Positions 1 to 17,852 of a stretch of 35,847 nucleotides of DNA are shown here, one piece after another. Source of the stretch: Acidimicrobiia bacterium (GTDB taxonomy: Bacteria > Actinomycetota > Acidimicrobiia > Acidimicrobiales > Bin134); contig JAJEEH010000008.1 in assembly GCA_022821105.1 (NCBI GenBank), positions 1-35,847 of the forward strand, given 5' to 3'. Position 1 is the first letter of the stretch. Every line of letters begins with the position of its first letter. The notes under the pieces were generated by a model that saw nothing but the letters and a program-made list of their open reading frames with translations, made no database searches and was not told the origin of the DNA. Both the position numbers and the translations under genes were made by a program.

Positions 1-687
1 GTCCACACCAAGCAATTGAAGTTGGCGAACTGGAGGTACCGGCGAGTCCTCGCGGTGAAAGGCCGTTACCCATTCCAATTCGCTTAGTTCGTCAAGTGTG
101 ACCTGTTCTCCGACCTTTGGGTTGTCGATGTCTACCAAAAGAACCCAACGATCCTCATAGGCCTTGAAGTGTGGAATGCCCTCGATGAGGCCCACAGGAA
201 GAACAAAGCCATCCACATTCCTCACCGCCGTTGCGGCGGTGGCAATCAATTCGTCGTTCAAAGGTCGGAACCGGAGACGAGCGTGAGGGGCTGCTGACTC
301 CAGCTCAGCCGCGATTGCACGGCCCAGCAAGAGCTGTCCGTAGTCGGACACCGCAATTGTGAACTCCCGGGTAGATCGGGCACTGTCAAAAGTTGAACGC
401 GTCTCGTAAAGACGTCCGACGTCGGCGAGCAGGACCGCAACGCGAGTCTTGAGCTGGGCGGCCAACGGGGTCAACTCGTATCGATTTCCCACCCGGACAA
501 GCAGCTCGTCATCGAACTGGCGGCGCAGCCGCTGAAGTGAGCCGGACAAAGCCGGTTGGCTGCGCAGAAGTCGGCCGGCGGCCCGGGTCACGCTCTGCTC
601 ACGCAACAGGGCGTCCAAAGCGATGAGAAGATTGAGGTCAAGGACGTTGAGATCGGTGGCCGGCTCATTGCCTTCGTCGGTTCTCAC
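1..687 (-). CDS. LysR-family transcriptional regulator (partial, C-terminus beyond window start; GTG start)
   Basis: Reverse-strand translation from GTG at 687: VRTDEGNEPATDLNVLDLNLLIALDALLREQSVTRAAGRLLRSQPALSGSLQRLRRQFDDELLVRVGNRYELTPLA..., a classic LysR HTH domain. The frame stays open to position 1. Absent from the supplied ORF list. Confidence 0.93.
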   Translation of the reverse strand, partial: MRTDEGNEPATDLNVLDLNLLIALDALLREQSVTRAAGRLLRSQPALSGSLQRLRRQFDDELLVRVGNRYELTPLAAQLKTRVAVLLADVGRLYETRSTFDSARSTREFTIAVSDYGQLLLGRAIAAELESAAPHARLRFRPLNDELIATAATAVRNVDGFVLPVGLIEGIPHFKAYEDRWVLLVDIDNPKVGEQVTLDELSELEWVTAFHREDSPVPPVRQLQLLGVD

Positions 688-845
688 CGAAATCCTCCCC
701 TATAGCTCAAACCAATGACACATATTATCAGTTTCACCTTCGCTGATGAATGCCACTTGAGTACTGTTCGCCAAGCAAAGACAAGTCAGTTTCCGCATTT
801 GCAGGGGAATGTCGAATGGCAGCAGTTGAATCGGCCCTAGTGGTG
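646..845. repeat. Direct repeat copy 1: divergent promoter region plus 5' ends of lysR and of the FAD monooxygenase
   Basis: Matches 5033-5232 at constant offset 4387, with about 6 mismatches in 200 bp counted by eye. Confidence 0.95.
727..747. promoter_or_regulatory. Candidate LysR-type operator dyad ATCAG-N11-CTGAT (copy 1)
   Basis: Interrupted dyad in the divergent intergenic region. Also present at 5114-5134. Confidence 0.4.
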
Positions 846-938
846 ACCGCTACCGGCCAGGCGCACGGCATCCACGACGCACTCGGCGGCCACGAGCAGT
901 ACATGACAGCACTCGAGTCGCTCCTCGCCGCCCTGTGA
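816..938 (+). pseudogene. Chimeric 40-aa ORF: first ~10 residues of the FAD monooxygenase fused to an unrelated C-terminal tail
   Basis: MAAVESALVV matches MAAVETALVV of the 5203 gene, then diverges to TATGQAHGIHDALGGHEQYMTALESLLAAL*. Confidence 0.7.
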
Positions 939-978
939 TCACTTCGAACGACCGATGTATCGCGAATCGAGGACAACG

Positions 979-2028
979 ATGACCATGCCCACCGAGCTCC
1001 CGACCAACCAGTGGTTCGTCATCGCCTCCGTCGACGAGCTCGGTGACGGCCCGCTGGCACGCACCGTGTGCGGCGAGAACGTCGTCCTGTTCCGGGACGC
1101 CGAGGGAACGCTGGCGGCGCTCGTCGACCGATGCCCTCATCGGAATTACCCCCTGTCACTCGGCCAGGTCTTCGATGGGCAGCTGCAATGCGGCTACCAC
1201 GGACTGACGTTCTCGTCGTCCGGCACGTGCGTCTGGGCGCCGAACCAGTCGAGAATTCCCTCGAGCGCCTCAGTTGCGTCGTACCCCCTTTGTCAGACCG
1301 GGCCGTGGATCTGGGTGTGGATCGGGGATCCCACGCACCCAGGAGTGGCAGCGCCGCCGGTCCTTCCATGGCTCAGCGAGCCTGGCTGGGCAGTACTCCA
1401 CGGTATGGAACCGATCGCCGCTCGCTACGGGCTGTTGGTCGACAACTTGCTCGATCTTTCGCACGAGACCTTCCTCCATGCCGGCTACATCGGAACCCGC
1501 GAAGTCGCAGCGACGCCGATCGAGACCGAGGTCGATGACGCGACCGGGACCGTCAGGGTCAGCCGCCGCATGGCGGCGGTCGAGTGTCCCAAGTTCTACT
1601 CCGAGACCACGGGAATGACGTCGCCGATCGATCGCTGGCAGGACATCGAATACCGCCCGATCTGCCAGTACGTCCTGCACTCTCGGATCGCACCGGCGGG
1701 AGTCGCACCGGCCCTCGACGGCAGCGACCCCGATGCCGCTCATCTGAAGATCTTGTACGCCATCACTCCGTCCACGGCAGGAACCACCCTCGACTTCTGG
1801 GCGTTGTGTCGCAACTTCTCGGTTGACGACGAGGGGGTCGACGAGGCGATGGCCGACATGCAGCGCACGGTGGTTCTCCAGGACGTGGAAGCACTAGCGC
1901 ACGTGGAACGGGTGCTCGGGCAAAGCGATGTGGTGACCGAGGTCAGCCTGAAGATCGATTCCGGTGCGCTCGCAGCTCGACGGGTCATCGGACGCCAGCT
2001 CGAAGCCGAATCATCCACAGCGAACTGA
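979..2028 (+). CDS. Rieske non-heme iron oxygenase, VanA-like (aromatic O-demethylase/oxygenase component)
   Basis: Rieske motif CPHRNYPLSLGQVFDGQLQCGYHG; mononuclear iron motif DNLLDLSHETFLH. ORF extends upstream to 955; ATG at 979 preferred. Confidence 0.9.
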   Translation: MTMPTELPTNQWFVIASVDELGDGPLARTVCGENVVLFRDAEGTLAALVDRCPHRNYPLSLGQVFDGQLQCGYHGLTFSSSGTCVWAPNQSRIPSSASVASYPLCQTGPWIWVWIGDPTHPGVAAPPVLPWLSEPGWAVLHGMEPIAARYGLLVDNLLDLSHETFLHAGYIGTREVAATPIETEVDDATGTVRVSRRMAAVECPKFYSETTGMTSPIDRWQDIEYRPICQYVLHSRIAPAGVAPALDGSDPDAAHLKILYAITPSTAGTTLDFWALCRNFSVDDEGVDEAMADMQRTVVLQDVEALAHVERVLGQSDVVTEVSLKIDSGALAARRVIGRQLEAESSTAN

Positions 2029-2041
2029 TGCGCACGGTGCT

Positions 2042-2105
2042 CGAGCTTGGCGTCGGTGGCGCCGATGTTCTCGAAGACGGTGTTCATGTCCGCGCCCTCG
2101 GCTTC
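2042..2105 (-). pseudogene. Remnant of a cupin gene paralogous to the one at 17090-17632
   Basis: 64 bp aligned with 17314-17377 with ~6 mismatches. Minus frame reads EAEGADMNTVFENIGATDAKLE versus EAEGADMDAVFENIGATDAKLE. Confidence 0.75.
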
Positions 2106-2152
2106 AAGGGTGAAGCTGATGACCTTCAGGCTTCCATCGAAGGGGCGAGCTC

Positions 2153-3622
2153 ATGACAAACAACCGGCCGAACGTGTTGATGATCGTGGCCGACCAGCTA
2201 CGAGCCGACGCAGTGGGCGCGTTCGGTGCCGACTTCGCCAGTACGCCGAACATCGATGCCCTGGCAGAGCGAGGGACCCGCTTCACGAATTGCTTCACCC
2301 AGCATCCCGTGTGTTCGCCGAGCCGGGCGTCGTTTCTGACCGGTTGGTATCCGCACACGCGGGGACACCGCAGCCTCACCCATCTGTTGCGCCCCGACGA
2401 CCCGAATGTCTTGAAGTCGTTCAAGCAGCGTGGCTACCACGTCGTCCATGTCGGTGAGCGTGGCGACACCTGGGCACCTGGCGCCACCGAAGAGAGCTGT
2501 CACGAGTACGGCTGGGCAACGCCGCCGGACACCCCAATGATGGCCCCCAAGGGGCAGATGCATCCCGACTGGCCGATGTCGAGAGCGTTCTACATCGGCA
2601 AGGTCGACGACGAGCACGACCACGATTTCGACGAGGCGTGCACCCGAACCGCCGAGGCGTGGCTGGCCGAGCGACCTCATGACCGGCCGTGGCTGCTCTA
2701 CGTGCCCATGATCTTCCCGCACTGCCCGTTCGCGGCGACTGAGCCTTGGTACTCGATGCACGACCGCGCCGCGCTGCCGCAGCGGGCGGGGCATGTGCAG
2801 TCGGGTCACGAACCGGCGTTCATGCAGAACGTTCGCGACACCTACGGGCTCGGCCGCCTCTCCGACGAGGAGTGGCGCGAGATCGCGGCGGTCTATCACG
2901 GCATGGTCTCCCGGCTCGACTCACAGGTCGGCCGCATACTCGCAGCGGCCGGCGACGACCTCGCGAGCACCGTGGTGGTCTTCTTCAGCGACCACGGCGA
3001 GTACCTGGGGGACTACGACCTGATCGAGAAGTGGCCCTCCGGCATGCACGACTGCCTCACCCGAGATCCGCTGGTGATGGCCGGACCCGGCATCGCCGAA
3101 GGACGCGCTGTCGACGCGATGGTCGAGCTGATCGACATTGTCCCCACGCTCTACGATCTCGCTGGTTTCGAGCCCGACTACACCCATTTCGGGCGCAGCC
3201 TCGTTCCGGTGCTTCGAGATCCGGACGTCGGGCACCGGGAGTACGCGTTCACCGAGGGCGGCTTCCTCGTCGAAGAACACGGCCAGCTGGAGAACCCGGG
3301 CTTTCCGTACGACCTCAAAGGCAAGGCGCAGCACGAACGACCCGAGACGGTCGGCAAGGTGGTGGCCATCCGCTCGAAGGAGTGGACCTATGTATGGCGC
3401 CTGTACGAGCCGCCAGAGCTCTACGACCGGCGCGCCGACCCTCAGGAGCTGCACAATCTCGCAGGCCAGCCCGAGCACGCCGAGCTCGAAGCGACGCTGA
3501 GCGCCGAGCTGTTGCGGTGGATGGTCGCGACCGCCGACGTGATGCCGTGGGATGACAATCCCCGATTTCCGCAGGTCGACCTGCCTCAGCCGGCGGGCTC
3601 CCGGTCGATGGAGGCAGGATGA
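2153..3622 (+). CDS. Type I sulfatase (formylglycine-dependent), alkaline-phosphatase superfamily
   Basis: RPNVLMIVADQLRADAVG N-terminus; CSPSRASFLTG formylglycine signature; VVFFSDHGEYLGDY metal-binding motif. Confidence 0.95.
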   Translation: MTNNRPNVLMIVADQLRADAVGAFGADFASTPNIDALAERGTRFTNCFTQHPVCSPSRASFLTGWYPHTRGHRSLTHLLRPDDPNVLKSFKQRGYHVVHVGERGDTWAPGATEESCHEYGWATPPDTPMMAPKGQMHPDWPMSRAFYIGKVDDEHDHDFDEACTRTAEAWLAERPHDRPWLLYVPMIFPHCPFAATEPWYSMHDRAALPQRAGHVQSGHEPAFMQNVRDTYGLGRLSDEEWREIAAVYHGMVSRLDSQVGRILAAAGDDLASTVVVFFSDHGEYLGDYDLIEKWPSGMHDCLTRDPLVMAGPGIAEGRAVDAMVELIDIVPTLYDLAGFEPDYTHFGRSLVPVLRDPDVGHREYAFTEGGFLVEEHGQLENPGFPYDLKGKAQHERPETVGKVVAIRSKEWTYVWRLYEPPELYDRRADPQELHNLAGQPEHAELEATLSAELLRWMVATADVMPWDDNPRFPQVDLPQPAGSRSMEAG

Positions 3623-3708
3623 CTCGGCGCCCGAACATCGTCGTCGTCTTGACCGACGACCACGCTGGGCAGTCGATCGGGTGCTTGGGTGCCATGGGCT
3701 CGGTCTGA
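3619..3708 (+). pseudogene. Truncated second sulfatase (N-terminal remnant, 29 aa)
   Basis: ATGA overlap with the preceding stop; MTRRPNIVVVLTDDHAGQSIGCLGAMGSV* matches a sulfatase N-terminus and then terminates. Confidence 0.75.
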
Positions 3709-3742
3709 AGGCGCGGAACAGTCAGGACGAAGTGCGAAGACG

Positions 3743-4913
3743 ATGTGCGATGTGGTGAGTCGGGCCGTGAACAGCATGCCGGAGCGCGAACGGGGAGAGG
3801 TGCTGGCAGCGCTTGCGGAGGATGCTGCTGCGGCCGCCTCAGCGTCGCCACGCATAGCCCCGGGGTTCGAAGCGATGGCGCCGAGCGACCGCGCCGGCGG
3901 ACGAACCCGTTTAGTGACGGTCGGTGTGGCCGGTGGGCCTGTCATCAGCAATCCGAGCCGCGTCGGTGTCTGCACCGCAATCATCCATGCGGACCGCATG
4001 TATGTCGTCGATCTCGGGGTCGGCTCGCTCAACCGTTTGGCAGCACTCGGTCAGCGTGAGAACGGCGGCGATTCCAGCAACACCTTCCTGTCGCTCCGGG
4101 CACTGTTCTTCACGCACATGCACAGTGATCACTGCGTGGACTGGCCGGCCCTCTACGCCACGGGGACCATGATGGCGAACAAAGCGACCGACCCAGTTCA
4201 GGTGTTCGGTCCTGGACGCCGAGACACGCTCCCCCGAGTGTTCCCGCCGCACCGGCCCGAACCCTCGGTGATCGAGCCGGACGACCCGACGCCGGGGATC
4301 GAAGGCATGACCAGGTATCTGCGAAAGGCATTCGCGGCAGACTTCAACGATCGGGCGCGAGACAGCAACTTCAAGATTCCCGACGACTGGTTCGATGTCC
4401 ACGACATCGACCACTCGCCACACTGGACGGTCGATCCGGCTGGCATCCCGCCCCGGTTGTCGGGCCCAATCGAGGTTTGGGAGGACGGCGACGTGCGCGT
4501 GACGGCGACGCTCGTCGATCACCACCCGACGGCTCCTGCATACGGCTTCCGGTTCGACACTCCTGACGGGTCGATCGTGGTCTCCGGTGACACGACGGTT
4601 TCGGAGAATCTGATCGACCTCGCGCATGGGGCGGACTACTTTGGTGCACGAGGTCATCGATCCGGCCTTTGCCGACCGGCTCGCGTCGATTCTCCCGCCC
4701 GATGTCGGTCCGGCAGTGCGCGAACACCTGCTGACTGCGCACACCACCGTCGAGCAGGTTGGTCGAGACGTCGCCGAGCCGGCCAGCGTTCGCAACCTGG
4801 TGTTGTCCCACATCGTGCCGTCGACAACCCCGGCGGATGTGCTCGCCGCCGCTCAGGACGGCTACTCCGGGCGCCTGATCATCGGCGAGGACATGCTGGA
4901 ACTCAGTGTCTGA
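3743..4913 (+). pseudogene. Metallo-beta-lactamase-fold (RNase Z-like) hydrolase with a +1 frameshift
   Basis: THMHSDHCVDW motif in the first frame. The frame shifts at 4640-4642 (TTT where TT would keep frame). The C-terminal half continues in the 4626-4913 frame (LVHEVIDPAFADRL...NLVLSHIVPS). Start uncertain (3743 or 3875). Confidence 0.8.
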
Positions 4914-4959
4914 AGGGTCTGACGAGGATCGTCTCGCCCTGGGAGGCGGTCTGGCCGAT

Positions 4960-4973
4960 CTCCACCGGTGGAG
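4960..4973. promoter_or_regulatory. Perfect 14-bp palindrome CTCCACCGGTGGAG in the rearrangement junction
   Basis: Self-reverse-complementary; lies between the MBL stop and the lysR remnant. Confidence 0.4.
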
Positions 4974-5010
4974 CATTTCGGAGGACCGGCGGGTCTGGCG
5001 CCAGCGCCTG

Positions 5011-5075
5011 GCCCAGCAAGAGCTGTCCGTAGGTTGAGATCGGTGGCCGGCTCATTGCCTCCGTCGGTTCTCACC
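5011..5075 (-). pseudogene. lysR remnant: N-terminal codons joined to an internal lysR fragment by a 302-bp deletion
   Basis: 5011-5032 equals 322-343 and 5033 onward equals 646 onward; 344-645 are missing. Confidence 0.8.
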
Positions 5076-5232
5076 GAAATCCTCCCCTATAGCTCAAACC
5101 AATGGCACGTATTATCAGTTTCACCTTCGCTGATGAATGCCACTTGAGTACTGTTCGCCAAGCAAAGACAAGTCAGTTTTCGCATTTGCAGGGGAAAGTC
5201 GAATGGCAGCAGTTGAAACGGCCCTAGTGGTG
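5033..5232. repeat. Direct repeat copy 2 (promoter of the intact FAD monooxygenase)
   Basis: Matches 646-845. Preceded by 22 bp (5011-5032) identical to 322-343 inside lysR. Confidence 0.95.
5114..5134. promoter_or_regulatory. Candidate LysR-type operator dyad ATCAG-N11-CTGAT (copy 2)
   Basis: Same dyad as 727-747. Confidence 0.4.
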
Positions 5233-6327
5233 GGCGCGGGCAGCGCAGGATGTGTCGTCGCCACAGTCCTAGCCAGAGACGGCGTCGATGTAGACATAGT
5301 GGAAATCCAGAACGACGTGACCGCACTTGGCTCAGGTATCACCATCCAAGGCAACGCATTGCGAGTGCTCCGAGAGATCGGTGCCTGGGAAGCAGCATCA
5401 GACGCCGGCTACGCATTCGACACCACCGGGATCCGCATACCCGACGGCACCCTTGTGGCGGAACTCGATGACATCAAGACTGGTGGCCCGGATCTCCCGG
5501 CGACCCTCGGAATGGAACGGAGGCACCTAGCTGAGATTCTCGTCGACACCGCGTCGGCAGCCGGCGCAACGCTGAGTTTCGGCATGACGGTAGCCAACTT
5601 CGATGACGAAGGCGCGGGGGTTGATGTGACATTCAGCGACGGGACTAACTGCCGCTACGACCTTGTAATCGGAGCCGACGGTGTCAAGTCGACGGTGCGG
5701 GACATGATCGGGATCACTACCAGGCCCGAGCCCACCGGTATGGGAATCTTCCGAGTCTTCACGAGCCGACCAGACTCGGTAGAGCGCACCGACCTCTGTT
5801 ACGCGGGTCCCGCCTACATCGCCGGCTACTGCCCAACTGGTGAGGATTCCCTGTACGCCTACATCGTGGAACCGATGCAAGATCGCGAAGAGATGCCGCC
5901 AGAAGACCAGCTCGCCTATATGCGCGAGCTTTCCGGGGCCTACCAAGGACCGTGGGAGGACATTCGCGAGCTGATGATCGACCCAGCGACCGTCCACTAC
6001 ACCTGGTTCGAGAAAATGATCCTCGAACCGCCCTGGTGGCGCGGCCGCGTAGTCCTGATCGGCGATGCTGCCCATACCTGCCCGCCGACGATTGCGCAGG
6101 GTGCCGCACAGGCCATGGAGGACGCGTTAGTCCTAGGCGAGAGTTTGCTGGCCAACAGTGATCTCGCGTCCGCGCTCGACGCATTCATGGATCGCCGTTA
6201 CGACCGGGCCAAGACCGTGGTGGATGCGTCGGTGCAAGTGGGGCAGTGGATGATCGACGATGACCCCGACGCAGACATCCCCGGACTATTCATGCGAACG
6301 CTCGGCGCGCTATGCGAGCCGGCCTGA
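5203..6327 (+). CDS. FAD-dependent aromatic monooxygenase (group A flavoprotein hydroxylase)
   Basis: ALVVGAGSAGCVVATVLARDGVDVDIVE (GxGxxG); DLVIGADGVKSTVR; RGRVVLIGDAAHTCPPTIAQGAAQAMEDA. Confidence 0.93.
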   Translation: MAAVETALVVGAGSAGCVVATVLARDGVDVDIVEIQNDVTALGSGITIQGNALRVLREIGAWEAASDAGYAFDTTGIRIPDGTLVAELDDIKTGGPDLPATLGMERRHLAEILVDTASAAGATLSFGMTVANFDDEGAGVDVTFSDGTNCRYDLVIGADGVKSTVRDMIGITTRPEPTGMGIFRVFTSRPDSVERTDLCYAGPAYIAGYCPTGEDSLYAYIVEPMQDREEMPPEDQLAYMRELSGAYQGPWEDIRELMIDPATVHYTWFEKMILEPPWWRGRVVLIGDAAHTCPPTIAQGAAQAMEDALVLGESLLANSDLASALDAFMDRRYDRAKTVVDASVQVGQWMIDDDPDADIPGLFMRTLGALCEPA

Positions 6328-6350
6328 CCATCTCGGAGCCGGAAGTACTT

Positions 6351-7289
6351 ATGACAGAACGATTGATAACCCACCTCCGCCACGTCGACCTCGCGGTGTC
6401 CAACTACGCGGAGCAGCGGAATTTCTACCTCGACACCTGGGGCCTCAGCGAGGTCGCCACCGACGGCAACTTGTCCTATATGGCCGCAGAAGGCTCACCT
6501 GAACCCTTTGTCGTGCGGCTGCGGGAGGCCGACGACAAGCGGATCGACCTCATCAGCCTGGGCGCCGCAGATCGCGCCGCGGTCGACCGGCTCGCGTCCT
6601 TGCTCGGCAGCGCCAATGTTCAGCTGGTGACCGAGCCCAGGGATTTGACGACCTACGGCGGCGGGTACGGCTTCCGATTCTTCGACGGTGACGGACGCAC
6701 GCTCGAGGTCTGCTGCGAAGTCGAGGAGCACGAAGCCCGCGAGATCGAGCCGATGGAGGCGATCCCGCGATCGCTGTCACACGTCGTTATCAACTCGGCC
6801 GATCCGGAGAGCACGGTCGCTTGGTACATGCAGCACCTCGGAATGGCGATCAGCGACCAGCTGACGATGCCTGGCATGGGCGACCTGATGTGGTTTCTGC
6901 GTTGCAGCCCCTGGCATCACACCTTCGCGGTCGTCCGCGGCCCGCATGCGTCTCTCCATCACCTTTCATTCGAGATGCGTGGTGTGGAGGAGAACATGAT
7001 GGCGACGGGCCGGGTGATGCGGGCCGGCATCGAGCGCATCTGGGGGCCCGGCAAGCACAAGGCCGGCGACAACATGTTCAACTATTTCATCGATCCGGCT
7101 GGCAACACAATGGAGTACACGACCGAACTCGAGTTGGTGGACGAGGCCACCTGGGTACCCCACAAGTACCCGATAGTCGAGCCCATGGTCGCCGACCAAT
7201 GGGGAACCGCCAACCCAATGGGCCCCGACATTGCGCAAAAGAGCCACAACGACCCGGACCGAGGGCTCTATGTCCCTCCGCCAGTCTGA
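6351..7289 (+). CDS. VOC-superfamily / type I extradiol-like ring-cleavage dioxygenase
   Basis: Two VOC modules (LRHVDLAVSNYAEQRNFYLDTWGL; LSHVVINSADPESTVAWYMQHLGM), HASLHHLSFEM and NTMEYTTEL metal-ligand context. Confidence 0.87.
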   Translation: MTERLITHLRHVDLAVSNYAEQRNFYLDTWGLSEVATDGNLSYMAAEGSPEPFVVRLREADDKRIDLISLGAADRAAVDRLASLLGSANVQLVTEPRDLTTYGGGYGFRFFDGDGRTLEVCCEVEEHEAREIEPMEAIPRSLSHVVINSADPESTVAWYMQHLGMAISDQLTMPGMGDLMWFLRCSPWHHTFAVVRGPHASLHHLSFEMRGVEENMMATGRVMRAGIERIWGPGKHKAGDNMFNYFIDPAGNTMEYTTELELVDEATWVPHKYPIVEPMVADQWGTANPMGPDIAQKSHNDPDRGLYVPPPV

Positions 7290-7358
7290 CAAACGCCTTT
7301 CCGAGTTTCGGCATGGTGCAGACCTCTCAGTTGCGAGATTCCCCATCGAAAGGAATTG

Positions 7359-8153
7359 ATGGCTCCCACGCAAGTTCCCATGTCCAAGCGCTTCGAAGGT
7401 CGATCTGTTCTCGTTACGGGGGCAGGCACCGGCTTCGGTGCCGAGATTGCCGTGCGGGCCGCCCAGGAGGGGGCCCGGGTCGTCGGCGTGCACTACCGGA
7501 ACTCGATGGAGGGCGCTAAGCGCACCGTTGAGCGGGTACAGGCGACAGGCAGTTCTGCGCTGCTCCTGCAAGCCGATATCTCGGATTGGAATCAGGTTCG
7601 GGCCATGGCGGAGAGGTCCTTTGCTGAGATCGAGACCGTCGACACCCTGGTCAACAACGTGGGTGATGTGGCCCGAGAGCAGATGTCCTGGCGCGATGTC
7701 ACTGAAGCCTCGATCGATCACGTCATCGACGTCGATGTGAAGGGAACGATGTTCTGCATTCATGAGTTTGGTACGCGGATGCTCGAACAAGGCCACGGCA
7801 ACATAGTCAACATCGGGTCGACGGTCGTGGTTCGCGGCAGCGCTCGAGCTCCGCAGTACGCCGCGGCCAAATATGCCTTGATCGGGCTCACAAAGTCCTA
7901 CGCCCATGCGTTTGCCCCCACCGTCCGTATCAACACTTTCGCCCCGGGCTTCATCGAGACCGAAGCAACTCTCGGCCGAGAGGACTGGAAGAGCGGTCGA
8001 GCGGAGGAACTGCGCTCCATGACCCCCATGAACCACATCCCAGGGCCAGCCGAGATTGCTGGGGCTGCGCTGTTCCTCGCCACCGACGACGCCAACCACA
8101 TTACGGGCGCGTACATGCTGGCTGATGGAGGCTTCAACATGGTGGGTGCGTAG
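7359..8153 (+). CDS. SDR-family NAD(P)-dependent oxidoreductase
   Basis: VLVTGAGTGFGAEIA cofactor motif, NNVGD, YAAAKYALIGLTKS catalytic YxxxK. Confidence 0.93.
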   Translation: MAPTQVPMSKRFEGRSVLVTGAGTGFGAEIAVRAAQEGARVVGVHYRNSMEGAKRTVERVQATGSSALLLQADISDWNQVRAMAERSFAEIETVDTLVNNVGDVAREQMSWRDVTEASIDHVIDVDVKGTMFCIHEFGTRMLEQGHGNIVNIGSTVVVRGSARAPQYAAAKYALIGLTKSYAHAFAPTVRINTFAPGFIETEATLGREDWKSGRAEELRSMTPMNHIPGPAEIAGAALFLATDDANHITGAYMLADGGFNMVGA

Positions 8154-9008
8154 GTGACTGGTGCCCCCGGGTCGCTAAGGGCGGTCGTGTTCGCCGTGGA
8201 CGGCAGCCGTCGCGTGGGTCGTCTCGAAGGCGATACCGTCGTCGATGCGGGGCCGGCTTCCGAGCGCGGCTTCATTCCAACCACCGAGGCCTGGAACCAG
8301 CTCCGCAGTGCCGATGGCCCGAATTACCCCTTCGACAACGTGGCGCTCGACGCGCCAGTCCGACCAGCCAAAATCCTCGCCATTGGGATCAACTACCGCG
8401 ACCACGCAGCAGAATCGAATAACGAGGAACCCGAAGAACCAGTTGTGTTCGCGAAATTCCCATCGTCGGTGATCGGGCACGGACAAACCATCATCGTGCC
8501 CCAAGAAGAGACCCGTCCCGACTGGGAGGGTGAGATGGGTATTGTGATCGGCCGATCGGCATACCGCGCCAACGCCGCCAGCGCACGGACAGCAATCGGA
8601 GCCATCACGGCAGTGAACGACGTCTCGGGCCGTCGGGCCCAACTCGAGACCCCCCTCAAGCAGTTCACCTTGGGCAAGAGCTTTGACACCTTCACCCCCA
8701 TGGGGCCATGCCTCGTCGACTCCACCGACATTGACCTTGACGATCTCGAGGTCACAACGGTAGTGAGCGGTGTCAGGAAACAGCACTCCTCAACGAGCAA
8801 GATGATCTACTCGGCTGTCGAGCTAGTGGAATACCTCTCCCGCGGGGTGACGCTCGAGCCCGGCGACGTCATCGCCACCGGTACACCAGCGGGCGTGGGA
8901 AACCGCGAAAGCCCCCCTCGATACCTCCGCGAGGGTGACATCGTCGAAGTCTCGGTGTCACACGTGGGTACGCTGCGCAATGCGGTCAAGATGGAGTCGG
9001 AGTCATGA
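8154..9008 (+). CDS. Fumarylacetoacetate hydrolase (FAH)-family protein 1
   Basis: AIGINYRDHAAESNNEEPEEPVVFAKFPSSVIG; LEPGDVIATGTPAGVG. GTG start adjacent to the SDR stop. Confidence 0.93.
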   Translation: MTGAPGSLRAVVFAVDGSRRVGRLEGDTVVDAGPASERGFIPTTEAWNQLRSADGPNYPFDNVALDAPVRPAKILAIGINYRDHAAESNNEEPEEPVVFAKFPSSVIGHGQTIIVPQEETRPDWEGEMGIVIGRSAYRANAASARTAIGAITAVNDVSGRRAQLETPLKQFTLGKSFDTFTPMGPCLVDSTDIDLDDLEVTTVVSGVRKQHSSTSKMIYSAVELVEYLSRGVTLEPGDVIATGTPAGVGNRESPPRYLREGDIVEVSVSHVGTLRNAVKMESES

Positions 9009-9601
9009 TCGCGCGCCCGATTGAACGTTTCCGACCAGCCGAGCTCAACGAAGCCCAGCAACGCCTCTACGACGAGCTCACCACCGGCTTAAGGTCGCGC
9101 GACCCGCAGTACTTCTCGATTGTCAATGCTGACGGTGGATTGGAAGGACCTTTCAATGCCTTCCTGCTCCAACCGGCTCTTGGATCTGTCCTCCAAGCGG
9201 TTGGTGCAGCGATCCGCTACGAAACAAAGTTGACCGATCGGACCCGGGAGCTCGCCATACTCGTGGTCGCAGCCGCATGGAAATCCGAGTTCGAGCGGCA
9301 CGCGCACGAGCCAATCGCACGAGCAGCGGGTGTCACAAATGCTGAGATCACCGCGATCCGTGAGGGCGACGACTCTACAGCGGTGTGGCCCGACGCAAAC
9401 GACCGGACGGTGGTTCAGGCAGTGCGCTCGCTCCACGAATGTGGCGATTTCGACGACGAGCTCTACGACCGCGTCGTAGCTGCTCTCGGCCTCCCGGGGC
9501 TGTTCGAGCTGATGACCCTCGTCGGCTACTACGCCACCCTCGCCATGCAACTTAGAGTCCTCCGGGTCGCACTTCCCCAAGATTTGAATTGTTCCAATTG
9601 A
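9005..9601 (+). CDS. Carboxymuconolactone decarboxylase (CMD)-family protein
   Basis: RTRELAILVVAAAWKSEFERHAHEPIARAAGV; overlaps the upstream gene. Confidence 0.85.
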   Translation: MIARPIERFRPAELNEAQQRLYDELTTGLRSRDPQYFSIVNADGGLEGPFNAFLLQPALGSVLQAVGAAIRYETKLTDRTRELAILVVAAAWKSEFERHAHEPIARAAGVTNAEITAIREGDDSTAVWPDANDRTVVQAVRSLHECGDFDDELYDRVVAALGLPGLFELMTLVGYYATLAMQLRVLRVALPQDLNCSN

Positions 9602-9617
9602 AAGGCCGGAGATTCCC

Positions 9618-10502
9618 ATGAAACTCGCAACTTTCAACAACGGAAGAGTCGGCCGCATCGAGGATGATCTAATGGTCGAACTCGAATGCGGAACTACTCG
9701 CGAGTACTTCGAGCGAGCTGGTGACGTTCCCGAGACCGGCGAACGCATCGCCATGAGCGAAGTTCGCCTTGAAGCGCCGATCGTGCCCAAGAAGTTCTTC
9801 CACACCGCGGGCAACTTCCTAGACCACCACGAGGAGCTCGCTGCCGTTGACTGGTCACATCCCGTCCACAAAGGGATCGTCTTTTTTCAAAATGTCGACG
9901 CGATCATCGGACCTGACGATGCAATCGTGTATCCCGAGGGTCTCACCAATGAGGTCGACTACGAGCTCGAACTAGCCATCATCATCGGCAAGCAAGGAAG
10001 TTGGTTCAGCGCCGAGGAGGCTGTTGACCACATCGCCGGGTACATGGTGTTCAACGACATCACAGCTCGTGACATCCAGCGCCGAGAGATGGAGTCTGGA
10101 GTCTTCTCGTTCTCAAAGGCGATCGAGACGTTCTGCCCCATTGGTCCCTACATCGTCACCGCCGACGAAATCGATGACGCCCAGAACCTGGCCATGGAGC
10201 TACGCGTCAACGGAGATGTCCGTCAGAAGGGCCATACGAAACAGATGCGCATCGACATCCCCCACCTCGTCGCTTACCACTCGCCCCAGGGTTACTCAGC
10301 TGGCGACATCATCACGACGGGGACGATCTCCGGCGTCGCCGCCGTGCAGCCCAATCCCTTCGACTACTACCTCCGGCCCGGAGATCAGATCGAGGCCGAG
10401 ATAGAAGCCGTTGGCATCTTGCGCAATCACGTAGTTCGGTGGAGCGCAGCACACGACACAGAGCCATACACCATGGACCTGTACGCACCGACCGACAGTT
10501 GA
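9618..10502 (+). CDS. FAH-family protein 2 (2-keto-4-pentenoate hydratase/isomerase-like)
   Basis: FFHTAGNFLDHHEEL; EVDYELELAIIIGKQG; YSAGDIITTGTISGVA. Confidence 0.92.
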   Translation: MKLATFNNGRVGRIEDDLMVELECGTTREYFERAGDVPETGERIAMSEVRLEAPIVPKKFFHTAGNFLDHHEELAAVDWSHPVHKGIVFFQNVDAIIGPDDAIVYPEGLTNEVDYELELAIIIGKQGSWFSAEEAVDHIAGYMVFNDITARDIQRREMESGVFSFSKAIETFCPIGPYIVTADEIDDAQNLAMELRVNGDVRQKGHTKQMRIDIPHLVAYHSPQGYSAGDIITTGTISGVAAVQPNPFDYYLRPGDQIEAEIEAVGILRNHVVRWSAAHDTEPYTMDLYAPTDS

Positions 10503-10535
10503 CACACTCGACTACCAAGGAATGGAACCAAACCC

Positions 10536-11795
10536 ATGTCCATCATCATCACTGGAGGCCAAGTATTCGACGGGACCGGATCGGCGGCGACCCCGGGTGA
10601 AATAGTCATTGATGGCGACCGGATCACCGAGGTCCGATCCGGCCACCACCCAGACCACCACGACGGCCACGAGATTGTTGATGCAACCGGCTGCACCGTC
10701 ATGCCTGGGCTCGTCGAATCGCACGCTCATATCACGTTTCCGTCAGCCGTCGGCCATATAGACCCATCTTTCAATCCTCCGCTCGATGTCTCCTTCTTTG
10801 AGAAAATCGAAGGATTCCCTTCGGAACTCGCCCGCGCCGAGCGAAACGCCGGCATTCTCCTCGACGCCGGATTTACATCCGCCTACTCCGCGGGATCGCT
10901 CATTCCGATGCCCACCGAGGTTGCCCTCCGAGACAAGCTAGATGCCGGCGTCATCCCCGGCCCGCGGTTCAAGGCTTGTGCGGCAGAGCGAGATGCCGTG
11001 CCCCGAGGTCCAGTCGACAGGCCGGAGGACTGGGATAAGCCGGCAGCGCTCGCAGACTGGGTTCGGTCCCACGCTGAGCAGGGTTTCGACTCGATCAAGC
11101 TGCTCCTCAGCAATGACGACGTCTTCGTCAAAGGCGGCAGCCAGATCACCCAGTACTCTGAGGACCAGGCGAAGGCCGCTGGAGAAACTGCTCGTGAGTA
11201 CGGCGTCTGGCTTGCCGCGCATTGTCAGGCCGCAGAGTCGGTGAAGCTCGCCGTCCGCCACGGCTTTCGGTCGATCTACCACTGCACATATGCAGACGAA
11301 GAGGCACTCGACATGCTCGAAGAGGCCAAAGACGAGGTGTTCGTCTCGCCGGCGCCGGGGATCATTTGGGCAAACATCCACGCCGGGGAGGAGTACGGGA
11401 TCGACCGGGCTATGGCAGAGCAGATGGGCTCAGTGGCATGCCTCGACCACATGCGTGAGCTCTGTCCGAAAATGCGAGCCCGTGGCATCAGGGTGCTACC
11501 CGGTGGCGACTACGGCTTTCCAAACAACCCCATCGGCAAGAACGCACACGACCTAACCCTCTTCGTGACCGAGCTCGGCTACACGGAAACAGAGACACTG
11601 GTAGCAGCGACGAAGCTCGGTGGCGAGCTGATGGGCATGGGTGATGAGCTGGGATTGCTGGCCGAGAACTACCTGGCCGACGTGCTCGTCGTCGAAGGCG
11701 ACCCCGTCGCCGACATCACCGTACTCGAGGAACCCAAGAGGATCGTGGCGATCATGCAGGGCGGCCGATTCCACAAGCAACCCGCGGCGCGCTAG
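10536..11795 (+). CDS. Amidohydrolase (imidazolonepropionase-like)
   Basis: TVMPGLVESHAHITFPS; LAAHCQAAESVKLAVRHGFRSIYHCTYAD; GGDYGFP. Confidence 0.92.
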   Translation: MSIIITGGQVFDGTGSAATPGEIVIDGDRITEVRSGHHPDHHDGHEIVDATGCTVMPGLVESHAHITFPSAVGHIDPSFNPPLDVSFFEKIEGFPSELARAERNAGILLDAGFTSAYSAGSLIPMPTEVALRDKLDAGVIPGPRFKACAAERDAVPRGPVDRPEDWDKPAALADWVRSHAEQGFDSIKLLLSNDDVFVKGGSQITQYSEDQAKAAGETAREYGVWLAAHCQAAESVKLAVRHGFRSIYHCTYADEEALDMLEEAKDEVFVSPAPGIIWANIHAGEEYGIDRAMAEQMGSVACLDHMRELCPKMRARGIRVLPGGDYGFPNNPIGKNAHDLTLFVTELGYTETETLVAATKLGGELMGMGDELGLLAENYLADVLVVEGDPVADITVLEEPKRIVAIMQGGRFHKQPAAR

Positions 11796-11799
11796 CGAC

Positions 11800-12606
11800 A
11801 TGATCGCTGTCCACCATGCGATCACCTACGCGTCAGTCATGGGCTTTCGGCCGCTGGCGCTGGACCTGTACGTCCCAGAGGAGCCCCGAGCAGTCTGCGT
11901 CTACCTGCACGGCGGGGGCTGGCGCCGGGGGTCGCGGCGCGACGGGCCAGGGCACATGACCGGACCCGGTGAGGAGTTCCTCGAGAGGATGGCGGAGCGC
12001 CAGCTTGCCGTTGCTGCCTGTGACTACCGGCTAAGCGGCGAGGCCATATTTCCTGCCCAGCTCGAAGATGTGATTGCTGCGTGTCGCTTTGTCACCTCCG
12101 ATCTCGGTGTTTACGGGGTCTCCGAGATTCCGCTCACGCTCTGGGGTCTGTCCTCAGGTGCCCACCTGGCCGCACTCGCTGCTCTCAACCCACGCCTCGA
12201 CGTCGAGGTGGCCGCCGTAACCTGTTGGTCCGCCCCCTCAGACATTGCTCGACATCAAGATGATCTTGAAGCGCTGGGGGCCCCCGTCGACCGGGGACCG
12301 GACTCGCGTGAGGCTCAGTTGTTGGGGGGTGTGGTGGACGAGCTTCCCGATGCGGCCAGGAATGCAAGCCCCGTCCATCACATTCGAGCCACGTCGACAC
12401 GCTTCGAGCTCGTGCATGGCACCAACGATGTTCATGTGCCCGTTGCGCAGAGCAAGCGCTTTGCCGCTGCGCTGGAAGAGACGGGGACATCGGCGACTTT
12501 GGTGCTGGTCGAAGGTGGCGATCACTTCTACAAGGAGATCGAACGCGATCGCTTGTCAGAACTGGTGGATACCTCGATCGACTTTCTGATCGACAACTCT
12601 TCGTGA
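11800..12606 (+). CDS. Alpha/beta hydrolase (esterase/lipase, HSL-like)
   Basis: VCVYLHGGGWRRGSR (HGGGW); TLWGLSSGAHLAALAA (GxSxG); VHGTNDVHVPVAQ; GGDHFYKE. Confidence 0.9.
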   Translation: MIAVHHAITYASVMGFRPLALDLYVPEEPRAVCVYLHGGGWRRGSRRDGPGHMTGPGEEFLERMAERQLAVAACDYRLSGEAIFPAQLEDVIAACRFVTSDLGVYGVSEIPLTLWGLSSGAHLAALAALNPRLDVEVAAVTCWSAPSDIARHQDDLEALGAPVDRGPDSREAQLLGGVVDELPDAARNASPVHHIRATSTRFELVHGTNDVHVPVAQSKRFAAALEETGTSATLVLVEGGDHFYKEIERDRLSELVDTSIDFLIDNSS

Positions 12607-13538
12607 GCGCTTTATCGGGACAGCGAATTGCAGTCGTCGGAGGGGGGCAGATAGGTGCCAGCTGGTCGGCTCTCTTCGCTCATTACGGGGCTGCCGTCAC
12701 CTTGTGGGATCCGGTGACCAAAACGTACGAGATCGCAGACAAACGGATCAGGCGAGCACGGTCTCAGCTTGCCGAAATCTGCCCGGCCGTCGAGGCCGGC
12801 TCTGTCGAGTTTGCCGATGACTTTGCTGAAGCCTTGTCGGGTGCATCGCTAATCCAGGAGAACGCACCCGAATCCATCCAGACCAAAAGGCACCTGTACG
12901 AAGACATCGAGGCCGTTGTCGCCGAAACGGCGATCATTGCATCGTCGACCTCATCGCTGCGGTGGAGCGACTTATCACCTGGCCTTCGAGTCTCGGACCG
13001 ATTCGTCACAGCACACCCCTTCCACCCACCGCACCTCGTACCCCTCGTTGAGATATATGGAATCGACCCGTCTACCTGCGATCGAGTCGAAGCAATCTAC
13101 CGAACAACAGATCGTGTCACGGTCCGGCTGAAAAAAGACGCCGTAGGGCACATCGCAAACCGATTGGCGTCTGCCCTGTACCGGGAGGCAGTTCACATCG
13201 TGGCAGAAGAGATCGCCGACGTCGAAGCCGTCGACACTGCTCTCATCAACGGACCCGGACTGCGTTGGGCTGCGGTCGGCGTCCACATCGGTTACCACTT
13301 AGGTGGGGGAGACGGTGGGTTGGCCTCCTATCTTGACGCCCTGGGGCCGAGCCAAGAGCGTCGATGGGCAGACCTCGGTAAACCAGCGCTCGACCAGTCA
13401 ACAAAGGCCACTCTCGTAGCTGGCGTTCAAGCAGCAGCCGCTGGTCGCGATTTGCCAATGCTTGAGGCCGAACGCGATCGCCTTCTAATTGATTCGGCTC
13501 GCAAACGTCTCGGGCGTACCTTCGACGAATCGACCTGA
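12603..13538 (+). CDS. 3-hydroxyacyl-CoA dehydrogenase-family protein
   Basis: IAVVGGGQIGASWSALFAHYGAAVTLWDP; IQENAPESIQTKRHLYEDIE; SSTSSL; TAHPFHPPHLVPLVEI. Confidence 0.93.
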   Translation: MSALSGQRIAVVGGGQIGASWSALFAHYGAAVTLWDPVTKTYEIADKRIRRARSQLAEICPAVEAGSVEFADDFAEALSGASLIQENAPESIQTKRHLYEDIEAVVAETAIIASSTSSLRWSDLSPGLRVSDRFVTAHPFHPPHLVPLVEIYGIDPSTCDRVEAIYRTTDRVTVRLKKDAVGHIANRLASALYREAVHIVAEEIADVEAVDTALINGPGLRWAAVGVHIGYHLGGGDGGLASYLDALGPSQERRWADLGKPALDQSTKATLVAGVQAAAAGRDLPMLEAERDRLLIDSARKRLGRTFDEST

Positions 13539-13558
13539 AGGCCTGAACGGCTCGCCCG

Positions 13559-14752
13559 CTATGCCGGTTCGATGCTGAGGGGCAGGGAATCGAGCCCGCG
13601 CAGTGAATTGTTGAGGCGCGGAATGGGTTCCCCATTCGGTTCAATCAATCGCACGCGATCGCGAAGAGCTGTGAAGACGGCCTCCCCCTCCATGCGGGCG
13701 ATAACCATGCCGACGCAGGTGTGAATTCCGATGCCGTAGCCCAAGTGCCCGGTAAGCCGCCGTGTGACATCGAATCTGTCGGGGTTGTTCCACCGACGTG
13801 GATCGCGGTTGGCACCTGCGAACAATATGAGCACTTTCTGATCTCCGGCGATCTCCAAATCGCCAACAGTGGTGGACCCCGTCGTCGTGCGGAAGAACCC
13901 AATGACCGGGCAATCGCGGCGTATGGTCTCCTCGAAAGCAGCGCGTGCCAGTAGAGGATTCTCACGCACGAGCAGCCACTGGTCGGGCCCCGTCGCCAGG
14001 TTGTTGAGCGCAAATGCAATTCCGCTGACCGTGGTATCGACCCCTGCCGACAGGAACGAGCGCACCAGCATCGCTCCATCATCAGGAGTCAAACCGGCCG
14101 CCTCGGCGGCATCGTGGATCGCCGCGCCTATTCCTCCTGACTGGAGCGCATCGCGTGCACATGTCGCCGTGACCCAGGCGATCGTCTCTTCTGCATTCGC
14201 CATGGCAGTGCGGAAGCGTTGGTTCTCGACACCGTTCCCGTTGAAGACCAGGGATCCGTAGTCGAGTAGCCGTTGTCGCGTCTCGTCGTTTACCTCAATC
14301 CCGAAAGCCCGCGGAAACACCTCTGTGGGAAACACCTCGGCCAAGTCTCGAACGCCATCGAATTGCCTGCGATCGATCAACTCGTCGACTATCCGGCCAG
14401 CTGCCTTAGCGAATGCGCTTTCGAGTGATCGCAGTGCCTTGGGGGTCATCGTGCCCGCTACCACCTTCCGGTTGCGAGTGTGCTCGGGAGGGTCTGCTTC
14501 GACGAGAATGCTCGGTCGGCGCCATGATTGGTCGACCGCTAGGTCGGCCAGCCCCACGCCCCGACTCGACGAGAACTTCTCGTGATTGCGCAGCGCTGTG
14601 ACTACGTCGTCATGTCGAGCGATCGCCCAGATTCCGTATCGGTCGAGCCAGACCGCGTGACCGGCATCCCGGATCAAGGTCAAGTCGTCCCACGGTTCTG
14701 CGAGAAACTCGTCGCTGTACGGATCGACCCTTGATGCGGTGTGGCTGGTCAT
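13559..14752 (-). CDS. Cytochrome P450
   Basis: I-helix LSAGVDTTVSGIAF; ETIR (ExxR); heme loop GHLGYGIGIHTCVGMVIARMEGEAVF. Confidence 0.95.
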   Translation of the reverse strand: MTSHTASRVDPYSDEFLAEPWDDLTLIRDAGHAVWLDRYGIWAIARHDDVVTALRNHEKFSSSRGVGLADLAVDQSWRRPSILVEADPPEHTRNRKVVAGTMTPKALRSLESAFAKAAGRIVDELIDRRQFDGVRDLAEVFPTEVFPRAFGIEVNDETRQRLLDYGSLVFNGNGVENQRFRTAMANAEETIAWVTATCARDALQSGGIGAAIHDAAEAAGLTPDDGAMLVRSFLSAGVDTTVSGIAFALNNLATGPDQWLLVRENPLLARAAFEETIRRDCPVIGFFRTTTGSTTVGDLEIAGDQKVLILFAGANRDPRRWNNPDRFDVTRRLTGHLGYGIGIHTCVGMVIARMEGEAVFTALRDRVRLIEPNGEPIPRLNNSLRGLDSLPLSIEPA

Positions 14753-14772
14753 CGCCCTCCCTCCGGCGCCGA

Positions 14773-14782
14773 CCGTATACGG
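14773..14782. promoter_or_regulatory. Perfect 10-bp palindrome CCGTATACGG in the 36-bp divergent intergenic region
   Basis: Self-reverse-complementary and central between the divergent P450 and hydrolase start codons. Confidence 0.45.
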
Positions 14783-14788
14783 ATTCCC

Positions 14789-16045
14789 ATGGCATCAGCA
14801 CAACAGATGACCGTTATCAGGGGATTCAGCTGTGCCGATGAAGATGTCGCTGATACGTTGCGGCCCGAGGGGGTGACGGCCGAGATGTTCTCGTATTTTC
14901 CCGGCAATTACGTGTGGAATCTCTCCGTCTGCATCGCCTTGGAAAGCGGTGCGCAAATCGGGGAAATCGAGGAGATGTGCGCACCGCTGCGGGAGGCGGC
15001 CGCCCAAGGCGACAACCCTGGCACAGGTGACTTTCTCAAGTCTTGGGTCATCATGGCCGACAAACTGGTGGGACTCGCCGACGAGGACTCCGCTGCCGGG
15101 CATGGATTTGCGGCCGCCGACAAGTTGAACCGGGCGGCGCTCTACTACCAAATAGCCGAGCGCATGCAAGCCCAAGGCAGCACCGAGCGGGCCGCGGTGT
15201 ACCAGAAGGCGCTTGACTCCTTCGCCCGTTCCGTCGAATTGGGCGGCGCAAACATGGAGCGGGTCGAGATTCCTTACCTCCACGGTACGATCCCGGCCTG
15301 GTTCCGGAGCGCTGACCGAGGAGAGGGCCCGAGGCCGACGATGGTCTACGTGAACGGACTCGACTCCACAAAGGAGATGCTCCACTGGAGCTGTCTTGGA
15401 GATCAGCTCGCCAGACGTGGCATCAATACCCTCAACATCGATCAGCCAGGCACTGGTGAGGCGCTACGTCTTCATGGCCTCTTCGCCACCCCCGCCTGCG
15501 AGTGGGGCAGCGTGGTTTACGACGCCGTCAGCGCGCGTCCCGACGTAGACAACTCTCGCATCGGGGTGGCTGGCATCTCTTTGGGCGGCTACTACGCTCC
15601 CCGCTTGCTCGTTGCCGAACCCCGGTTCTCGCTCTGTGCCATTTGGGGGGCGAACCACAATTGGGGCGAGGTCCAGCGCCGTCGTTTGGAAAACGAGGGC
15701 GAGCGCCCTGTGCCCCACTATTGGGAACACGTGCGGTGGGTGTGGGGTGCCGCCGACATAGACGAGTTCCTGGATTTGTGCTCCCAGATCACCCTCGACG
15801 GACTGCTGGACAAGGTGACCGTGCCATTCCTCGTAACCCACGGCCAGAACGACCGCCAGATCCCACTCGAGTATGCCCACCAGACGTACGACCAGCTCGT
15901 AAACAGCCCTAAGCGAGAGCTGAAGATCTTCGACGACCGAACAATGGGCGTCGAACACGTCAGCGTCGACAATATGACCTACGGCGTGCATTTCATTGCG
16001 GACTGGATTGCCGAGGTATTTGACGAGGTGCCGGGGCCGGTGTGA
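14789..16045 (+). CDS. Alpha/beta hydrolase with N-terminal helical cap, similar to 2,6-dihydroxypseudooxynicotine hydrolase / FrsA-type C-C hydrolases
   Basis: TMVYVNGLDSTKEMLHW; IGVAGISLGGYYAPRLLV (GxSxG); FLVTHGQNDRQIPLEYA; HVSVD; ~180-residue N-terminal extension. Confidence 0.75.
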   Translation: MASAQQMTVIRGFSCADEDVADTLRPEGVTAEMFSYFPGNYVWNLSVCIALESGAQIGEIEEMCAPLREAAAQGDNPGTGDFLKSWVIMADKLVGLADEDSAAGHGFAAADKLNRAALYYQIAERMQAQGSTERAAVYQKALDSFARSVELGGANMERVEIPYLHGTIPAWFRSADRGEGPRPTMVYVNGLDSTKEMLHWSCLGDQLARRGINTLNIDQPGTGEALRLHGLFATPACEWGSVVYDAVSARPDVDNSRIGVAGISLGGYYAPRLLVAEPRFSLCAIWGANHNWGEVQRRRLENEGERPVPHYWEHVRWVWGAADIDEFLDLCSQITLDGLLDKVTVPFLVTHGQNDRQIPLEYAHQTYDQLVNSPKRELKIFDDRTMGVEHVSVDNMTYGVHFIADWIAEVFDEVPGPV

Positions 16046-16073
16046 ACGGGCAGTTCTTTGAGGGAGATGCACG

Positions 16074-17054
16074 ATGAAACTCGCAACGTTGCCTGGTCCG
16101 AGCGAAAACGGGCGTTTGGTGGTGGTCTCGCGCGATCTAAAACACTGCGTGGCGGTCGATGACATCGCAGAAACACTGCTCGAGGCGATTAGACGGTGGG
16201 ACGACGTGGCCCCGGCACTCCAGGAGCGATTTGATCAGATTGAAGCCGGTAGCGGCGACGGTTCCGCGGCGTTCAAGGCGGGCGAAGCGATGGCACCGCT
16301 ACCGCGGGCGCCCCAGTGGCTCGACGGCTCAGTGTTCCAGACACACCTAGACCTCATGTCGCAGGCGCTGCACCCCGAGCGACCCAACGAGCCCAGCGAC
16401 TACCCATTCATCTACCAGGGTGCGTCCGACGACCTGCGTGGCCCGACCGATGCGATCTGCGGATACCGATTCGACGAGGGCATCGACTTTGAAGGTGAAT
16501 TTGGGGTGGTAGTCGATGAAGTTCCCATGCGGACCACTGCCGCCGATGCCCTCGACCACGTCAAGCTACTGGTCTTGATCAATGATGTGAGCCTGCGGGC
16601 TTACGCCGGTCGTGAAATCTCGGCTGGATTCGGCTTTCTCCAGGCGAAACCGTCCACCGCTTTCGCAGCGGTCGCGGTGACGCCAGACGAACTCGGTGGC
16701 GCATGGCGCGACGGCCGAGTGAACCTCCCATTGCGCGTCGGGCGAAGCGGCGAGTGGTTCGGCCACCCACATGGATCCGAGATGACTTTCCACTTCGGAG
16801 AGCTCATCGCCCACTCTGCTTATACCCGCCTGTTGTCTGCGGGAACGATCATTGGTTCGGGAACGGTGTCCAGCGCAGACCGCTCCGTGGGCTCAGCCTG
16901 CATCGCTGAGCGCCGCGCGATCGAGATCATCGACTCGGGGGCGCCGTCAACACAGTTCCTAGGCGATGGAGAAACCGTCCGGATGGAGGTTCTTGACGAC
17001 GATGGCACTTCTATCTTCGGTGAGATTTACCAGCCTGTCGTCGTCGACGAATGA
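16074..17054 (+). CDS. FAH-family protein 3
   Basis: FIYQGASDDLRGPTDAI; EGEFGVVVDEVPM; LINDVSLR; GTIIGSGTVSSAD. Confidence 0.9.
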   Translation: MKLATLPGPSENGRLVVVSRDLKHCVAVDDIAETLLEAIRRWDDVAPALQERFDQIEAGSGDGSAAFKAGEAMAPLPRAPQWLDGSVFQTHLDLMSQALHPERPNEPSDYPFIYQGASDDLRGPTDAICGYRFDEGIDFEGEFGVVVDEVPMRTTAADALDHVKLLVLINDVSLRAYAGREISAGFGFLQAKPSTAFAAVAVTPDELGGAWRDGRVNLPLRVGRSGEWFGHPHGSEMTFHFGELIAHSAYTRLLSAGTIIGSGTVSSADRSVGSACIAERRAIEIIDSGAPSTQFLGDGETVRMEVLDDDGTSIFGEIYQPVVVDE

Positions 17055-17089
17055 CGATGCAGTGTGCCTCGGGAGTGCCGCACCCTGAG

Positions 17090-17632
17090 CTAGCCGAGCC
17101 CATCGGTGTATAGGCCGTCTATCAGAATGAAGGCGACTCGGCACGGTTGTTCGGTTCTGTTCATCCAGCCGTGGTTGGTGCCACGTTGTACGACGATGTC
17201 GCCTGGGTAGACGGTCGCCTCGCCCTCGTCCATCAACAGCACGACCTCGCCGGACAATACGATTCCGAAATCGATGGTCTCGGTGCGGTGGAAGGACCGG
17301 TGGCGGTCAGATTCGAGCTTGGCATCGGTCGCGCCGATGTTCTCGAACACGGCGTCCATGTCCGCCCCCTCGGCTTCGGGCGGAATGTCCAACACCCGAA
17401 TGCGGACCCCGTTTGTCGGCGGCGCGAGCACCAGTCCGGGCTCTTCGGCCTCGCGTCGGTCGCGGTCGATCAACGCAGGCGTCTCGGTGGTGTGCCAAAT
17501 CTCCTGGAAAACCAAGCCCTCCTCGCCAAGCGCGTCAAAGATCCGGCTTGTAGGGCCGTCGGCGACGATAATCGCAGTGCCGCCGTCGTCGTGGCCAGTG
17601 ATGATTCGGCGAACAGGTCCGGTAAAGCTCAT
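17090..17632 (-). CDS. Cupin-domain protein
   Basis: HRTETIDFGIVLSGEVVLLMDEGEATVYPGDIVVQRGTNHGWMNRTEQPCRVAFI. Confidence 0.9.
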   Translation of the reverse strand: MSFTGPVRRIITGHDDGGTAIIVADGPTSRIFDALGEEGLVFQEIWHTTETPALIDRDRREAEEPGLVLAPPTNGVRIRVLDIPPEAEGADMDAVFENIGATDAKLESDRHRSFHRTETIDFGIVLSGEVVLLMDEGEATVYPGDIVVQRGTNHGWMNRTEQPCRVAFILIDGLYTDGLG

Positions 17633-17649
17633 GAAACTGCCTCTCTTGG

Positions 17650-17669
17650 GATGAATGTGGATGAATGTG
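17650..17669. repeat. Tandem 10-bp repeat (GATGAATGTG)x2 upstream of the cupin start
   Basis: Direct reading: gatgaatgtggatgaatgtg. Confidence 0.85.
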
Positions 17670-17762: not shown

Positions 17763-17852
17763 TGGCGGAAGGTATGGGATTCGAACCCATGGTGACCCGG
17801 AGGCCACAACGGCTTTCGAGGCCGCCCCATTCGTCCGCTCTGGCAACCTTCC
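17763..17852 (-). tRNA. tRNA-Ser(CGA), CCA encoded
   Basis: Reverse strand GGAAGGTTGCCAGAGCGGACGAATGGGGCGGCCTCGAAAGCCG...GGGTTCGAATCCCATACCTTCCGCCA; 7-bp acceptor stem, long variable arm, CTCGAAA anticodon loop. Confidence 0.96.

Follow-up and report, generated by a model that had tools for sequence, protein, structure and literature searches.

The window, meaning the whole 35,847-bp stretch analysed here, is an entire contig of a metagenome-assembled genome (MAG) of 302 contigs. At its left end a LysR-type regulator gene (lysR) is divergent from a catabolic operon headed by a gene for an FAD-dependent aromatic hydroxylase (the FAD monooxygenase, or FAD gene), and a duplicated promoter segment and several other genes lie between them. 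Two copies with identical junctions are also found in four MAGs of the same genus (G003, G005, G006 and G013), and comparisons among five genomes refer to these and the window genome. A literature search for these MAGs by name found no paper. The features are:

1-687, minus strand: LysR-type regulator, 5' two-thirds (Pfam HTH_1, E 5e-14); the contig end cuts the gene
646-845: left repeat copy, comprising the lysR 5' end, the intergenic region 688-815 and FAD codons 1-10
816-938, plus strand: 40-aa fusion ORF, FAD codons 1-10 in frame with a foreign C-terminal remnant (TATGQAHGIHDALGGHEQYMTALESLLAAL)
979-2028, plus strand: Rieske non-haem iron oxygenase, VanA/dicamba O-demethylase-like (Pfam Rieske, VanA_C)
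2041-2150, minus strand: internal fragment of a gene related to the cupin-like ORF at 17090-17632 (minus strand); 91% identity over 65 nt to 17313-17377
2153-3622, plus strand: sulfatase with a CSPSR formylglycine-type motif (Pfam Sulfatase, E 1e-43)
3619-3708, plus strand: second sulfatase-like gene with a truncated N-terminus, from its translation and weak tblastn matches to sulfatase N-termini
3743-4913, plus strand: MBL-fold hydrolase (Pfam Lactamase_B_2); frame broken at about 4640
5010-5032, minus strand: lysR remnant of 23 nt, an exact copy of lysR 321-343, abutting the right repeat copy
5033-5232: right repeat copy, the native promoter of the FAD operon, with 0-1 differences among the five genomes
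5203-6327, plus strand: FAD-dependent aromatic hydroxylase, gene 1 of the catabolic operon (Pfam FAD_binding_3, E 4e-38; NF005313 above cut-off)
6348-10502, plus strand: downstream catabolic genes (VOC dioxygenase-like, SDR, FAH hydrolase, CMD, FAH hydrolase)
1-17659: portion of a ~35-kb island that falls within the window; its right border adjoins tRNA-Ser(CGA)
17763-17852, minus strand: tRNA-Ser(CGA), next to the right border of the island

The segments 646-845 and 5033-5232 form a direct repeat with an offset of 4387, in which 194 of 200 bases match and six are substituted; self-comparison of the window thus bears out the ~97% identical 200-bp repeat described in an earlier, sequence-only reading of this DNA. 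Besides the 5' end of lysR, whose start codon is the minus-strand GTG at 687, the repeat contains the entire intergenic region (128 bp) and ten codons of the FAD gene, and it matches its own assembly in these two places only (E 2.8e-103 and 1.9e-92). The same promoter segment therefore stands at both ends of the intervening genes, as expected for promoter capture by duplication. To this we add the lysR remnant at 5010-5032 (E 3.6e-4 against the whole genome; ~2e-5 such matches expected by chance within the window). At the junction 5032/5033, lysR position 343 is fused straight to position 646, and 344-645 are absent there; the right copy is accordingly the remnant of a larger lysR-promoter-FAD duplicate. 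In the five genomes the left copy has 6 variable sites and the right copy 1, a difference that is not significant (p 0.12). The segment 4914-5232 is almost unchanging, with 1 variable site in 319 bp compared with ~2% elsewhere, which could be due to constraint or to chance.

The insert at 846-5009 combines whole genes with gene fragments in a patchwork. The ~4.2-kb acquired module of the sequence-only reading holds in so far as the segment is foreign to the genus, where its Rieske gene is confined to the five island carriers; it is not, however, a clean module, and part of lysR was also duplicated and suffered an internal deletion. The fusion ORF at 816-938 stays open in all five carriers, and no relatives of its C-terminal remnant were found in plasmids or in the ~150 order genomes searched. 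The Rieske protein, for which an in-frame ATG at 955 is a possible alternative start, has dicamba O-demethylase DdmC (3gb4, E 1e-46) as its closest solved structure, and the structure matches of the sulfatase at 2153-3622 are choline- and aryl-sulfatase. The truncated ORF at 3619-3708 overlaps the stop of this first sulfatase. The ORF related to the fragment at 2041-2150 lies at the right end of the island and is called cupin-like from its sequence; 2041-2105 pairs with 17313-17377, and one G011 contig ends inside that cupin-like gene.

The MBL frame is broken by a one-base insertion, an extra T (TACTTTGG, about 4640), in the window genome only, the four relatives being intact, and this is either a mutation or a sequence error. 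Values of dN/dS across the five genomes, computed from pooled counts and small numbers, are 0.06 for the Rieske gene, 0.21 for the sulfatase, 0.24 for the FAD gene and 0.67 for MBL, the last of which rests on few changes; constraint on the MBL gene is weak. The Rieske and sulfatase frames are open in five of five genomes, which together with their dN/dS values indicates that these genes are used. A DNA search of ~400 order genomes for the source of the insert returned similarity to single genes only, the best being to the Rieske gene in G348 (71% nt), and the Rieske and sulfatase genes were not found together at any locus examined outside the carriers.

Right copies differ from one another at 0-1 positions and from any left copy at 4-8, and the left/right differences are partly fixed (positions 674, 722 and 793). 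The copies thus cluster by position and not by genome, so that the duplication is older than the spread of the island and the copies are not being homogenised. Since both copies hold the lysR-promoter-FAD junction, these elements were adjacent in the immediate ancestor. This is in agreement with the ancestral order proposed in the sequence-only reading, and with a distant actinobacterial homologue, G450, in which lysR and the FAD gene are immediate divergent neighbours, the latter followed by VOC, FAH and SDR genes. In several other actinobacteria, however, lysR is separated from the FAD gene by an FAH gene plus roughly 1 kb, which may be the older arrangement; the homologous loci compared for gene order share 50-59% identity. 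None of those checked has a Rieske, sulfatase or MBL gene between lysR and the FAD gene. An arrangement with lysR beside the FAD gene and no insert was thus seen only in the distant homologue G450 and in none of the genus or order genomes searched. All carriers found have two copies, and no close single-copy version appeared in non-exhaustive samples of the genus, order, class and phylum; the order of events given below is consequently a reconstruction.

The duplicated promoter belongs to a segment of ~35 kb that has the look of an aromatic-catabolism island shared recently among several species of one genus, judging from an identity between carriers of 98-100% over its length, compared with mostly about 89-96% in the aligned flanks, and from the existence of empty sites. 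In G007 and G008 the gene at the left border lies directly beside tRNA-Ser, and G020 has the two flanks adjoining, with no island between them. The window genome shows only the right half of the island because its contig ends in lysR; in the relatives the island extends about 17 kb further leftward. Beyond 17763 the window is 91-94% identical to its relatives. The left half encodes an FAD_binding_3 hydroxylase, LigB, an amidohydrolase, PrpF and a GFO/IDH/MocA oxidoreductase, a set whose family names suggest a resemblance to protocatechuate 4,5-cleavage. The right border lies ~104 bp from tRNA-Ser(CGA) in three of the five carriers (the window genome, G005 and G006), and in G003 and G013 it is separated from tRNA-Ser by ~4.5 kb with ABC-transporter-like genes. 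The signature of an integrative element at a tRNA, an integrase with att repeats beside the tRNA, was not found: no integrase was recognised among the island ORFs read, and no att-like repeats were convincing, so that this mode of insertion was rejected.

As in divergent pairs of a LysR-type regulator and its target, the PF00126 HTH protein is divergent from the catabolic operon, and the same holds in G450 and other actinobacteria. The regulator gene is full length in G013 (324 aa), and its changes in the five genomes comprise 7 synonymous and 0 non-synonymous (dN/dS 0). Because the repeat takes in all 128 bp of the intergenic region, any operator there has been duplicated with it, and most simply the intact LysR would act on both promoter copies, which we consider most likely. 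The Rieske O-demethylase-like oxygenase and the sulfatase would then most likely be co-induced with ring hydroxylation and cleavage, and their predicted role would be in peripheral aromatic or sulfate-ester steps. Scans of the repeat gave no significant match to a LysR box or to a sigma-70 promoter, and in comparison with the actinobacterial homologues no shared LysR-box motif stands out in the window; a search of the intergenic region for T-N11-A type operators found a short dyad, ATCAG-N11-CTGAT, at about 727-747, which is not above chance. Transcription of the insert genes may also start at their own promoters. That one LysR controls two catabolic units through a duplicated divergent promoter, and that this arrangement was selected and carried between species on an integrase-less island, is a tentative proposal, which we regard as possible but short of probable.

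For the origin of the arrangement, we consider it probable that the locus records a promoter capture that happened in nature on a genomic island, through duplication or illegitimate recombination, and that predates the spread of that island. The sequence-only reading had likewise suggested promoter capture by duplication or recombination; the duplicated promoter and the junctions fit this, and the recombination route is our inference. In this scheme an ancestral lysR would have been divergent from the FAD-monooxygenase catabolic operon, and duplication or illegitimate recombination would have copied a stretch running from the 5' region of lysR through the divergent promoter into the first ten codons of the FAD gene. 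The promoter copy would have become joined to the foreign Rieske, sulfatase and MBL genes, giving the order lysR, promoter, FAD' fused to foreign DNA, Rieske, sulfatase, MBL, lysR scrap, promoter and FAD operon. The second lysR would have been cut to its 23-bp scrap by a later deletion, or by template switching during the event itself, and the completed arrangement would then have spread between species of the genus on the ~35-kb island beside tRNA-Ser. Break-repair template switching, tandem duplication with deletions and Campbell-type integration of a circle all give the same anatomy, and since the junctions 343/646 and 845/846 display no clear microhomology, these routes are not separated and no specific mechanism is favoured. 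Insertion by an IS element or transposon was rejected: in agreement with the sequence-only reading, no transposase is present among the island ORFs read, and there are no inverted repeats of at least 30 nt in 1-12000; the transposase, or the terminal inverted repeats with a target duplication, expected of such an insertion were thus not seen.

If a repeat had caused a misjoin in a single metagenome assembly, a segment would also stand twice on a contig, and the window, as one contig of a fragmented MAG, carries a frameshift seen in a single genome. The four other MAGs, however, have the same junctions and the fixed differences between copies on different contigs of up to 125 kb, and their copy spacing is 4386 compared with 4387 in the window, a difference explained by the extra T of the window genome; the records matched by protein search are titled as Acidimicrobiia MAGs from different bin sets. 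An assembly artefact is thus very unlikely, to the point of being negligible. The second promoter copy and the insert could instead be a non-functional recombination scar, hitch-hiking debris under no common regulation, in keeping with the fragments at 816-938, 2041-2150 and 3619-3708, the lysR scrap, the frameshifted MBL gene of the window genome and the more variable, albeit not significantly so, left copy. The selective constraint on the Rieske and sulfatase genes in five genomes argues against this, as does the retention of the entire intergenic region in the left copy, and we regard such a scar as unlikely.

Two further possibilities concern the route and leave the final anatomy and function unchanged. 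If the Rieske-sulfatase-MBL module was an older neighbour of lysR and not an insert between lysR and the FAD gene, tandem duplication of a unit holding module, lysR and promoter, with the leftmost module and the bulk of the second lysR lost afterwards, would account for the 845/846 junction, which has the shape of a tandem-duplication joint, and for the lysR scrap, which sits between module and right promoter as predicted. This course of events requires an additional deletion, however, and the stretches of G003, G005, G006 and G013 searched left of lysR contain no remnant of the module; we judge it to be improbable. Campbell-type integration of a circle carrying lysR scrap, promoter, FAD' and module, with the homologous crossover falling in the shared promoter, has the merit that a single crossover yields exactly repeat-insert-repeat, with an intact lysR on one side and an intact FAD gene on the other. 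It presupposes a circle in which the promoter was already captured, and 846-5032 contains no replication, mobility or plasmid gene, which makes this route distinctly doubtful.

Promoter capture by duplication is a known kind of event, of which the window locus is a good natural example; it does not represent a new type of system. Patchwork assembly is familiar from aromatic catabolic gene clusters that have LysR-type regulators, and the locus resembles them in its divergent LysR-type regulator and in the recruitment of peripheral genes to a ring-cleavage operon; it differs in that a readable duplicate of the promoter, and not IS elements, flanks the insert on either side. In the long-term evolution experiment with E. 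coli, a duplication is reported to have placed citT behind the captured rnk promoter, which activates the gene (Blount et al. 2012, as cited in PMC4718724). The likeness lies in a duplication that sets a gene behind a captured promoter. As described there, however, the citT/rnk case is a laboratory event and a simple tandem copy able to collapse, whereas the window locus is natural and older, involves the promoter of a divergent regulator, has a partly deleted regulator copy and resides on a multi-species island. Tandem duplication has also been found to activate horizontally transferred genes in an engineered system with 9-bp microhomology borders and multi-copy arrays (PMC11111574). Illegitimate duplication there switches on acquired DNA with no need for a transposase, as it would at the window locus, but the latter has only two copies and its junctions lack clear microhomology.

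The cases of promoter capture by duplication that we found in the literature thus come from laboratory evolution or engineering, and the present locus provides a natural case in which both scars are readable, several species carry the arrangement and captured genes are under purifying selection. Such a case would mean that an existing regulon can take in acquired genes through a copy of its regulator's promoter, with no insertion sequence involved, and that a unit wired in this way can go on to spread.
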